The translations under genes and the position numbers were made by a program. Positions 43,109 through 50,101 of a stretch of 64,000 nucleotides of DNA are shown one piece after another. Position 1 is the stretch's first letter, and each line of letters opens with the position of its first letter. Location of the stretch: positions 1-64,000 of the IMG/VR virus record IMGVR_UViG_3300005842_000010; one strand, given 5' to 3'. The notes below the pieces were generated by a model. That model had not been told where the DNA came from and did not search any database. It was given only the letters and a program-made list of their open reading frames with translations. Origin of the DNA: a virus.

Positions 43109-43766
43109 CTCAACAATTACCAAACAAGGTGAGCTGTTGGTAATGCTCGCTATAGCAGACTTCGCAAACGATCAAGGTGAGGCTTGGCCATCTGTTTCAA
43201 AACTGGCCGAAAAATCACGGTTAAGCGAGCGTGGAGTCCAATACATTCTATCTAAACTAAAGTCGTCCAGGCATTTATCTATTGAAGTAGGAGGTTCAGG
43301 ACCGAAAGATTCTAGCTTATATCGGGTAAGGGTGAAAGATTTGCACCCTAATCTCACTAAGGGTGAAAACTGTGACACGCTAAGGGTGCAATCTGAGGCG
43401 GTTAAGGGTGCAAACGGCGACAAAAAAGGGTGCAAAAGCTTTGCACCCGATCCGTCAGTACCCGTACAAGAGATCCGTCATAAAGATCCACCACTGGATT
43501 TGTCCGTGGAATTTCCTCCTGGATTTCCAAAGTCTGATAAAGAAGCACAGGCTTCGGCGTGTACTATCGGATGCCCTGCTGATTTTGTTTCGGCAACGTG
43601 GAACCATGCAGCGGGAAGGGGTGGTAGGGATAGTAAAGACGTTCCGATCAGGTCATGGAGACACCATCTTCAAGCGGCCTGGCAATTTCAGCGCGGGAGG
43701 GACGGTGCGGGAAAAACTCCAGAAAAAAACCAACTTCAGGAAAGAATTGAGGTTAAAAGCCTATGA
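43074..43766 (+). CDS. Replication initiator (O-like, HTH_36)
   Basis: Residues about 17-65 form a winged helix of the HTH_36 type: TKQGELLVMLAIADFANDQG, then EAWPSVSKLAEKSRLSERGV, then QYILSKLK. The middle is encoded by an iteron array, as in lambda O where the origin lies in the initiator gene. The C-terminal part ends SWRHHLQAAWQFQRGR, typical of phage replication proteins that contact the loader. A second ATG at 43089 is possible. The helicase loader gene follows by 4-nt overlap. Confidence 0.82.
   Translation: MSIRIMSQVWSDSTITKQGELLVMLAIADFANDQGEAWPSVSKLAEKSRLSERGVQYILSKLKSSRHLSIEVGGSGPKDSSLYRVRVKDLHPNLTKGENCDTLRVQSEAVKGANGDKKGCKSFAPDPSVPVQEIRHKDPPLDLSVEFPPGFPKSDKEAQASACTIGCPADFVSATWNHAAGRGGRDSKDVPIRSWRHHLQAAWQFQRGRDGAGKTPEKNQLQERIEVKSL
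43327..43448 (+). repeat. Iteron array, putative replication origin
   Basis: Seven copies of TAAGGGTGMAA: direct at 43327, 43358, 43381, 43403 and 43425, and inverted at 43341-43351 and 43440-43448. Three successive spacings are 23, 22 and 22 nt, two helical turns. The last direct and inverted copies form a perfect palindrome with 9-nt arms (GGGTGCAAA-AGC-TTTGCACCC). The array lies inside the initiator gene. Confidence 0.85.
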
Positions 43767-44401
43767 CGGAAGAGTTTCAAGAGCGAGAATTCAAAATTAA
43801 GACCATTTCAAACGAAGAGTATGATCGCAGGGAGGCTGAGAGAAAAGCAATAGACGATAAGTTTGAAATTGACGAAATCCGAAGGAAATGGAACTGCCCA
43901 CTGAGACAGGTTTCTTGTAAGCCGATAGCATCAGGAGAATGGGGAGAAAAGCTTGAAGTTCTAAAATCAAAGCTTGGGACTGGAATGATCGTTGCGCTTA
44001 CCGGCGGAAGAGGCAATGGAAAGACACAGCTCGGAGTAGAGATTATGAAGATAGTCTCAGCCTCCTTAGAGAAGTGTTATTTTTTCACCGCTACCGAGTT
44101 CTTCATGCTGATAAAATCGACCTATAAGAATGATGCAACTAGAAATGAGGCTCAGATATTGAGCGATCTTCGAAAATTCAAACTGCTGGTGATTGATGAA
44201 ATCGGGAAAAGATCAGAAAGCCAGTGGGAAAATAACCTTCTATTTGAATTGATAAATAAACGGTACGGCGACATGACGGACACTCTCATAATCGACAACC
44301 GGCAAAAAACTGACTTCATTGCGACTATTGGGCCGTCTCTCGCGAGCAGAATTAGCGAGACTGGAGGTATCATTGAATGCGGATGGGCATCTTTTCGATG
44401 A
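43763..44401 (+). CDS. DnaC-like helicase loader (AAA+)
   Basis: Walker A GGRGNGKTQ (residues 81-89), Walker B KLLVIDEIGKRSE (about 137-149), and sensor/arginine finger region SLASRISETGGIIECG, the normal DnaC/IstB layout. It would load the host replicative helicase at the origin recognised by the initiator; no helicase gene is present in the window. Confidence 0.88.
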   Translation: MTEEFQEREFKIKTISNEEYDRREAERKAIDDKFEIDEIRRKWNCPLRQVSCKPIASGEWGEKLEVLKSKLGTGMIVALTGGRGNGKTQLGVEIMKIVSASLEKCYFFTATEFFMLIKSTYKNDATRNEAQILSDLRKFKLLVIDEIGKRSESQWENNLLFELINKRYGDMTDTLIIDNRQKTDFIATIGPSLASRISETGGIIECGWASFR

Positions 44402-46623: not shown

Positions 46624-46946
46624 GCGAAGAAAAACGAATCCGTCCAGTGATAATCCTTCCAGAAAACATGATGAGCAAAAAGGATATTGCTCAACTTCGA
46701 AGGAACATGCTTTGCGTTGTCGAGTGCAAAGACCCTTCCATGGTGCGTTTTTGCGAGCCGCCGCCGAATGGGTATTCGGAGCAGGAGAAGGCCGCGATCC
46801 AGTTGTGTAGGCACGTTATGACTCAACATTCCGACGTGAGCTGGACAAAGCGGCAACTTGCTGAACGGTTGGCTGATTTCTTCATTAGCGGATCGCCGCT
46901 TCAAGCACCGGCGCGGGTGCCATCCGTTCCAACGACAAAGAAATGA
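46620..46946 (+). CDS. Hypothetical protein, 108 aa
   Basis: Helical C-terminal half (WTKRQLAERLADFFISGSPL) and a Pro-rich end. ATGA overlaps on both sides. Not recognised. Confidence 0.55.
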   Translation: MSEEKRIRPVIILPENMMSKKDIAQLRRNMLCVVECKDPSMVRFCEPPPNGYSEQEKAAIQLCRHVMTQHSDVSWTKRQLAERLADFFISGSPLQAPARVPSVPTTKK

Positions 46947-47347
46947 CCGAGGATGAACTCTCCATCTCCATGCGGGCAAATGGAATGCTTCCAGACGGAA
47001 AAGGAGGCTGGTTCAAACCAAAACGAAAACAAACCTCGACCGGAACTGATATTCAGCGCGGAAGTGGATGGAAGGTTGCCGAGCTGGAACGAGCTATTAG
47101 GCATGGAACACTGGTCGCGGCATCAGCTAAAAAAGGCGCTCCAAGAAACGTTCTTGTCCGGGTTACGTCAGTCCGGAGGTTCCTGCTCGATGACGATAAT
47201 CTTTGCGAAAAGTTCCATGTCGATTGCTGCCGATACGCTGCAATCATTCATGGAGACAGCCCGGCTACGACGCGAATTGAAGTTGCTCAAGTTAAAGCTG
47301 GGCCTGACAAAAGAGAGTACGTCAAAATCGAAATCTACCAGTTATAA
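46943..47347 (+). CDS. RusA-like resolvase, C-terminal part in this frame
   Basis: Frame starting at ATG 46943 (ATGA overlap). The last 65 residues carry a RusA-like core: VTSVRRFLLDDDNLCEKFHV, then DCCRYAAIIHGDSPATTRIE and VAQVKAG, with the acidic DDDN cluster. The first 30 residues (SISMRANGMLPDGKGGWFKP) also look real, but residues 35-68 do not; the expected N-terminal RusA part is in the overlapping +1 frame. RusA cuts Holliday junctions. Confidence 0.7.
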   Translation: MTEDELSISMRANGMLPDGKGGWFKPKRKQTSTGTDIQRGSGWKVAELERAIRHGTLVAASAKKGAPRNVLVRVTSVRRFLLDDDNLCEKFHVDCCRYAAIIHGDSPATTRIEVAQVKAGPDKREYVKIEIYQL

Positions 47348-47375
47348 AGCGCCACCAGGCGATCCGCCTTTCTAA
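46953..47375 (+). CDS. Overlapping frame with RusA-like N-terminal part
   Basis: Residues about 30-68 in this frame (PELIFSAEVDGRLPSWNELL, then GMEHWSRHQLKKALQ) match the start of the same RusA-like family. After residue 68 the sequence becomes Ser/Lys-rich and unlike a fold. A -1 shift at the A-AAA-AAG heptamer (47129-47135) would join it to the resolvase core in the other frame. Confidence 0.5.
   Translation: MNSPSPCGQMECFQTEKEAGSNQNENKPRPELIFSAEVDGRLPSWNELLGMEHWSRHQLKKALQETFLSGLRQSGGSCSMTIIFAKSSMSIAADTLQSFMETARLRRELKLLKLKLGLTKESTSKSKSTSYKAPPGDPPF
47129..47135 (+). other. Slippery heptamer A-AAA-AAG
   Basis: In the frame of the 46953 ORF the codons read CTA AAA AAG, so A-AAA-AAG is in the exact phase used by dnaX-type -1 frameshifting. 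A small hairpin AAGAA-ACG-TTCTT follows within 6 nt, and TCCGG...CCGGA further on. Confidence 0.5.
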
Positions 47376-47376
47376 A

Positions 47377-47610
47377 ATGACTATCTCAGACGAAGAACAA
47401 AAATCCATTGAGCAAAACGTTTCTAAGCTGATGGAACACTACGATTCGGTTAGGATCTTTGTCACACGACACGACGGTGAGAAGGACACAACCGAATCTT
47501 TTCACACCGGCGGCGGAAACTTTTACGCGCAGCTTGGGCAGGTTCGTGAATGGCTCGTTGTTCAAGATAGGCTCGCTCAAAGGCATGCCGACGAAGAGGA
47601 GGAAGATTAA
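47377..47610 (+). CDS. Hypothetical protein, 77 aa
   Basis: ISDEEQKSIEQNVSKLMEHY, then VRIFVTRHDGEKDTTESFHT and an acidic end. Strand-helix fold seen in small phage proteins. Unknown. Confidence 0.55.
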   Translation: MTISDEEQKSIEQNVSKLMEHYDSVRIFVTRHDGEKDTTESFHTGGGNFYAQLGQVREWLVVQDRLAQRHADEEEED

Positions 47611-47611
47611 A

Positions 47612-48130
47612 ATGGAATTCTACAGAAGCCAGATGGCTGAACCGAAGGGGCCGCGTGTGTCCAGTGGTAAGGACTCCCGACAGACGTACGAAACTCCAAA
47701 AGATTTCCTCGATGCCGTCGTTCGAGACTGGTGCCACGGCGAGGCGTTCTCCTGGGACCTGGCCGCGAGCGCGGAAAACTCCAAAGCGCCGCAGTTCATT
47801 AGTTCCGGACAGAACTCTCTACTTTATAACTGGAGATCGTTAAACGGTTTACTTTGGCTCAACTGTCCATTCAACTTCATCACCCCCTGGGCCAAGAAGT
47901 GCGCTGAGGAATCAGCTTACGGCGCGCGTATCGCGATGCTCGTGCCTGCCTCAGTCGATGCCAACTGGTGGGCGCAGTATGTGCACAAGAAGGCGGCTGT
48001 GCGCTTCGTTTCGCCGCGGATCTCGTTCGACGGTGTAGCGCCGTATCCGAAAGCGATTTCACTGCTGTTGTACGGCGATTGGATGATTCCCAATTTCGAA
48101 TGGTACGAGCCGTGGAGGTGGAAAAAGTGA
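47612..48130 (+). CDS. Phage DNA N6-adenine methyltransferase (Dam type, PF05869)
   Basis: The start is set at ATG 47612. Pattern: SRQTYETPKDFLDAVVRDW, then FSWDLAASAENSKAPQFIS, then LLWLNCPFNFITPWAKKCAE and ARIAMLVPASVDANWWAQYV. The methyltransferase motif IV reads NCPF where NPPY or NPPF is usual. It may protect phage DNA from host restriction. The length of 172 aa is normal. Confidence 0.82.
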   Translation: MEFYRSQMAEPKGPRVSSGKDSRQTYETPKDFLDAVVRDWCHGEAFSWDLAASAENSKAPQFISSGQNSLLYNWRSLNGLLWLNCPFNFITPWAKKCAEESAYGARIAMLVPASVDANWWAQYVHKKAAVRFVSPRISFDGVAPYPKAISLLLYGDWMIPNFEWYEPWRWKK

Positions 48131-49708: not shown

Positions 49709-50101
49709 ATGCAGACGAACTACTTCAAAATCTGGCGTTCAAGAAACATCGACGATGCCGCAAGAGAGAGACACGCCAGAAAAGCGTGGGCCTACAGGCA
49801 ACGAGTTAGGGCTGAGGTTATTGCGTCAATGGGTGGAAAGTGTGTCAAATGTGGATTTTCAGACCCAAGGGCGCTTCAAATCGATCACATCCATGGCGGA
49901 GGCTCCCAGGAAGAACAGGGCGGAAGCCGTTATGCTTTATTTGCCAGGCTGTCAAAACATCCAGATCCTATTAAGTTTCAATTGCTTTGCGCGAATTGTA
50001 ACACCATTAAGCGAGAAGAAAACGGAGAACAGACAAAGTGCAGAAAATACCAGGCACCAGACATTGCGCCAATGTGGGAGCCAGCCGTGTTTGATTTTTA
50101 A
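49709..50101 (+). CDS. HNH endonuclease in the RNA island
   Basis: Classical HNH with Cys ligands: CVKCGFSDPRALQIDHIHGG, then FQLLCANCNTIKREENG. A basic N-terminal helix precedes it. It is flanked on both sides by structured non-coding sequence, as for intron or intergenic homing endonucleases. Confidence 0.88.
   Translation: MQTNYFKIWRSRNIDDAARERHARKAWAYRQRVRAEVIASMGGKCVKCGFSDPRALQIDHIHGGGSQEEQGGSRYALFARLSKHPDPIKFQLLCANCNTIKREENGEQTKCRKYQAPDIAPMWEPAVFDF

Follow-up and report, generated by a model that had tools for sequence, protein, structure and literature searches.

Overlapping same-strand genes in viruses of bacteria and archaea that may divide the fold of a RusA-type resolvase between two proteins

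Results

Two mutually overlapping genes at the resolvase locus

The window analysed here, a stretch of 64,000 nucleotides from a 79,434-base virus record (IMG/VR IMGVR_UViG_3300005842_000010), carries two long plus-strand open reading frames that overlap each other almost completely: gene A (46943..47347), encoding 134 residues (LLDDDNLCEKFHVDCC), and gene B (46953..47375), encoding 140 residues (LPSWNELLGMEHWSRHQLKK). Gene A lies in the -1 frame relative to B, and B correspondingly in the +1 frame relative to A. The N-terminal RusA-like part (LPSWNELLGMEHW) is read in frame B, and the catalytic core, with the sequence LLDDDN, in frame A. A RusA-like enzyme divided over two frames had been proposed in a sequence-only reading of this DNA; the proposal is confirmed by the presence of both open reading frames and by relatives with the same layout, and the further suggestion that the resolvase frame also possesses a natural N-terminus is borne out by gene A. 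The A AAA AAG heptamer that the same reading placed at 47129..47135 of the plus strand is indeed in the phase used for -1 frameshifting (CTA AAA AAG in frame B), although a census of relatives and RNA folding indicate that it is not conserved as a slip site.

All features of the pair lie on the plus strand. Gene A consists of an N-terminal motif of the GY..GGW.KP type (MTEDELSISMRANGMLPDGKGGWFKPK; 46943..47023, from comparison of relatives), followed by a passive linker and then by the catalytic core of RusA (beta2-alpha2-beta3-beta4), as delineated from the open reading frame, relatives, PHROG matches and an AF2 model; the catalytic DDDN motif, located by the A alignment, occupies 47189..47200. 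Gene B, delineated from its open reading frame, AF2 model and selection, begins with a putative RusA beta1-alpha1 unit and continues into a long C-terminal helix. The segment corresponding to beta1 (ELIFSAEVDGRLPSWN) and helix alpha1 comprises B residues 31-77 (47043..47183; AF2 and alignments), and part of the DNA for alpha1 doubles as the coding sequence of strand beta2, A residues 70-78 (47150..47176; AF2 and silent sites). Further downstream lie two B codons that A-silent sites mark out, +16 (L96) and +19 (F99; Y in most relatives), at 47238..47249. Past the A stop, B continues through 47348..47375 and ends in ...GDPPF*. Comparison of B C-termini reveals that those extending past the A stop carry a PF tip (GDPPF*, KVPF*, PLPF*, PPPF*; 47361-47375 in the window), with a ..PF* end also on B of L008, L012 and L022; this tip is reminiscent of the C-terminal tip of SSB.

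The neighbouring genes are consistent with a phage DNA-metabolism region, and include a DnaC/IstB-like ATPase gene (43763-44401; 1.7e-11) and a Dam-type methyltransferase gene (47459-48130; 7.4e-18). An open reading frame close to the split RusA (49709-50101) has a weak match to Endonuclease VII (PF02945; 1.3e-4, just below the cut-off) together with an HNH match, making it a second candidate junction-processing nuclease.

Conservation of the two-frame layout

Searching with A alone recovered a single relative with the same two-frame layout (L001), searching with the two parts joined recovered 41 loci, and a 20-row alignment recovered 80 loci, about half of them new; three further loci were found in Verrucomicrobiota genomes, two of which are named isolates. 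In this first clade, all of the about 87 distinct contigs have the N-terminal part in B and the core in A. With archaeal virus vir555 and one Verrucomicrobiota genome as entry points, a second and very divergent clade was reached, yielding 26 further viral loci; here too the genes are in two frames with the same register (28/28 loci). An outlying locus from a distant Verrucomicrobiota genome (L100) is likewise two-frame, with a shorter B. Overall, the same layout and register occur in all of the about 116 distinct related loci found; among these are metagenomic viruses, an archaeal virus and prophages of cultured Verrucomicrobium such as isolates BvORR034 and BvORR106. A and B are found together in every locus, and each clade has a constant spacing between the PSWN/TWN motif and the catalytic Asp. 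As judged from these sequences, the layout greatly exceeds what chance would give and is a real, old and conserved overlapping gene pair.

Relatives with the whole gene in one frame would, according to the sequence-only reading, speak against this arrangement. Such proteins exist only as distant, ordinary RusA proteins (Mx8 p24, BcepIL02 gp18, RHph_N2 and A118 gp63), and no single-frame member was present inside the family among the loci found. A tblastn search of a phage collection with the window A or B returned no match. In vir555 (BK063671.1, 12539-12837; locus L098), the only annotated frame is B, listed as a hypothetical protein, and no gene is called in the catalytic frame.

Openness and selection of both frames

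The openness of each frame was evaluated by permuting codons among synonyms within each gene, with regions held fixed. For frame B downstream of the crossing, 53.8 stops were expected and none was seen (19.2 to 0 in clade 1, and 34.6 to 0 in clade 2), while the third frame, as a control, had stops close to expectation (105.3 expected versus 107 seen in clade 1, and 86.1 versus 98 in clade 2). For frame A upstream, with B codons permuted, 13.8 stops were expected and 0 seen in clade 1, compared to 11.5 expected and 4 seen in clade 2. The latter reflect a frame-A stop upstream of beta2 in 4/27 clade-2 loci, and in two of these (L145 and L156) an A ATG lies just ahead of beta2, behind the stop.

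Selection on the B protein is visible at silent sites of A. The clades are well diverged, with median identities at A third positions of 0.46 and 0.39, and yet A-silent sites are nearly fixed where they form the second base of particular B codons. In clade 1, the fixed B residues at the crossing are F, L, S, A/G and L, with L and Y further on; in clade 2, they are D, I, H and V, followed by Y..(I)RP. Binomial per-site p-values, which ignore phylogeny, reach 1e-13 for F at B codon -13, 3e-19 for L at -12 and 2e-17 for L at -9 in clade 1, and 2e-10 for L at +16 and 2e-9 for Y at +19, past the catalytic motif; for clade 2, the Y, I, R and P give 2e-15, 6e-7, 2e-15 and 6e-12 (loci of <80% identity). 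Upon thinning to <70% identity the main sites survive, namely the strongest junction sites and those of Y..MIRP, and the clade-1 sites +16 and +19 drop out. The fixation of A-silent sites by B residues indicates unshifted translation of B beyond both the start of beta2 and the catalytic motif. We conclude that both frames very probably encode real, separately selected proteins, and A would be translated from its own starts. The clade-2 B motif Y(L/Y).MIRP..S (L141, L142, L147, L152, L162 and others), kept through A-silent sites, overlaps the segment of A that contains the later Asp pair and lies at the position of the clade-1 B codons +16 and +19.

Gene A resembles the catalytic half of RusA

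Among 34 aligned A proteins, D83, D85 and D105 are invariant, corresponding to the catalytic D.DN and a later conserved Asp. Relatives have A cores that match RusA families in PHROG (phrog_34 at 8.8e-6 for L083 and 1.2e-8 for vir555); the window A alone gave no significant match to a RusA family, and in a Pfam search neither A nor the joined B-A sequence reached PF05866. The AF2 model of A comprises an N-terminal helix, a poorly ordered linker and a beta-alpha-beta-beta unit. When this model was compared with 900 chains using VIA-align, the first rank was taken by residues 52-117 of E. coli RusA (1q8r), in a modest alignment (Z 5.1 over 63 residues) that scored little above unrelated folds (Z 4.5), and Foldseek with the same model found no significant match. 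The structural alignment, in covering 52-117, leaves the RusA beta1-alpha1 absent from A. Judging by sequence, the A core is that of a RusA-type resolvase.

The N-termini of A proteins appear as interchangeable short motifs (RRLFPNAS..FI.AN, GY....GGW.KP and LP....Q...QL), with varied versions at L002, L045, L059, L067, L014, L100 and other loci. A YPNAS motif also heads another open reading frame in L077, L079, L080 and L081.

Gene B appears to hold the N-terminal half

B starts with ATG in 40/40 compared clade-1 loci, and a clear Shine-Dalgarno sequence precedes it in few. Its AF2 model consists of an extended segment, a helix at residues 53-77 and a long helix at 86-127. Several pairs of clade-2 B N-terminal parts and one-frame RusA N-termini (Rhizobium phage RHph_N2 and Listeria phage A118) align with z 4-7, and no signal was obtained against the remainder of the RHph_N2 and A118 proteins. 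Elsewhere the resemblance is fainter: Smith-Waterman comparison with the N-terminus of E. coli RusA gives z of about 1-2, and the best one-frame RusA match in a profile search with the B N-terminal part (L136; E = 0.053) is at a suggestive level. This part alone had no significant or consistent match in PHROG, and Foldseek with the B model found nothing significant. The alignments suggest that the N-terminal part of B corresponds to RusA beta1-alpha1, an assignment that is supported, albeit less strongly than that of the A core.

Discussion

A putative two-chain resolvase and its alternatives

The combined observations are accommodated by a model in which a single RusA-type Holliday-junction resolvase is divided into two polypeptides by mutually overlapping genes on the same strand. 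B would contribute strand beta1 and helix alpha1, the N-terminal half of the fold, together with its long C-terminal helix, and A would contribute the catalytic half (beta2, alpha2, beta3 and beta4, including D.DN and the later Asp residues), in most cases preceded by a short N-terminal motif and linker. Each would be translated from its own start, and the two chains, made from the same message, would assemble into an active resolvase in which B completes the A sheet. Strand beta1 and helix alpha1 belong to the core of the RusA fold; what A lacks is exactly this unit, which is the part that B appears to hold. We consider it likely that A and B together constitute a single two-chain resolvase of the RusA type; the model predicts that each is translated independently in cells, that the chains assemble and that they cut junctions. 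The alternation along the DNA of A motif, B beta1-alpha1 and A core, in which the flexible part of each protein overlies the structured part of the other, would also have the look of a long-settled overlap.

Alternatively, A alone could be a trimmed RusA-like nuclease, with B an unrelated overprinted protein outside the fold, such as a regulator or inhibitor. Selection on B extends to its C-terminal helix and the Y..MIRP motif, which are absent from ordinary RusA, and the N-terminal part alone is without a significant family match, as might be expected of an unrelated protein. However, such a protein would not account for an A that is devoid of RusA beta1-alpha1 while the N-terminal part of B aligns to that very segment in RHph_N2 and A118, at z 4-7 for several pairs and with no signal in the rest of the one-frame proteins, nor for the constant association of B with A. 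We regard an unrelated B as unlikely.

A programmed -1 frameshift from B into A, one of the two explanations offered in the sequence-only reading, would generate a full RusA, leaving unshifted B and A as by-products. The register is indeed -1, codon-position dominance changes from B to A at the crossing, and A AAA AAG is in phase in the window and six relatives (L001, L009, L032, L033, L086 and L155). Nevertheless, the in-phase heptamer is missing from most loci, occurring in 6/40 non-redundant loci of clade 1 and 1/27 of clade 2, and its position shifts among codons -20 to -23. The hairpins previously described after the heptamer find no support: folding of the 80 nt that follow it is no more stable than that of shuffled sequences (z = 0.13), and no hairpin excess was found in four relatives (z -1.68, 1.09, -0.25 and 1.89). 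Moreover, protein-level selection on B covers codons -13 to -9 and reaches as far as +27, beyond the crossing. The joined chain would fall 9-22 residues short of one-frame RusA; between the conserved Asn and the catalytic Asp, the spacing is 43-56 in one-frame RusA and would be 34 if the frames were joined, a value consistent with two chains and a doubly used segment. In the AF2 models, B helix 53-77 (47109-47183) covers the DNA of A strand 70-78 (47150-47176); since alpha1 and beta2 thus share bases, one shifted chain cannot contain both. Joined B-A sequences match RusA in PHROG for 15/20 members (best 2e-4), mostly through the core, and an hhalign comparison between the joined profile and an alignment of seven one-frame RusA proteins was not significant. 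A frameshifted enzyme as the main product is improbable, and some shifting could occur as a side product. The remaining proposal, that one base was misread in sequencing (A6 for A7) or that the gene is decayed, draws on the homopolymer run at the crossing in the window and is refuted by relatives: the layout is kept in more than 100 independent loci, most of them lacking that run and some of them drafts of the cultured isolates L043 and L044, so an undercall is rejected from the layout of all about 116 loci, and selection on both frames speaks against decay. We assign this reading a negligible probability.

Implications

Long same-strand overlaps in which both frames are measurably selected over deep divergence are unusual in dsDNA phages, and the proteins of such overlaps are usually unrelated (cf. 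PMC6195259). In the present pair, each frame appears to provide one of two complementary halves of a single fold, which, if true, would make it a striking example of protein splitting through overlap. On balance, we lean towards a single fold split between overlapping genes, an ancient two-chain RusA across bacterial and archaeal viruses that annotation has largely missed. It may explain why RusA-type resolvases seem missing or broken in some phage annotations, as in vir555, where B alone is annotated, and the locus could provide a natural test bed for the evolution of overlaps if the two frames constitute one enzyme. The layout is also a warning against calling frameshifts from a heptamer alone. 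In the PRFect article (PMC10885494), RusA/RuvC is listed within the false positives among genes 'known to contain a frameshift', and the sole matching reference found there concerns work on ruvC. The open literature searched contained no description of a resolvase encoded in this way.

Comparison with known systems

The closest comparison is with the RusA resolvases themselves (E. coli RusA, PDB 1q8r; phrog_34 and phrog_1682; PF05866). A has their D.DN...D core, its beta2-alpha2-beta3-beta4 aligns modestly with RusA 52-117, the N-terminal part of B weakly resembles beta1-alpha1, the parts follow the same order along the DNA, and DnaC/IstB-like ATPase and Dam methyltransferase genes are among the neighbours. 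RusA is one chain, whereas the present system comprises two polypeptides read from overlapping frames; in addition, B carries an additional long helix, motifs have been added at the N-terminus of many A proteins, and the sequences fall below Pfam detection.

In gene arrangement, the pair recalls the Rz/Rz1 spanins (embedded in lambda and overlapped in P2; PMC6139136), in which partners in one function are encoded by overlapping same-strand genes; the partnership of A and B is deduced from their complementary halves of one fold. Two-component spanins occur in embedded, overlapped and separated versions, and unimolecular versions are also known (PMC6139136). In contrast to spanins, which are two membrane-anchored lysis proteins, the overlap described here would divide the fold of one soluble enzyme, with a single stretch of bases specifying an alpha-helix in one chain and a strand of the catalytic sheet in the other. 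With genes expressed by programmed -1 frameshifting (dnaX and IS3-type A AAA AAG), the pair shares the register and, in the window, the heptamer; it differs from them in that the slip site is not conserved, no stimulator was found, and the unshifted product is selected throughout.
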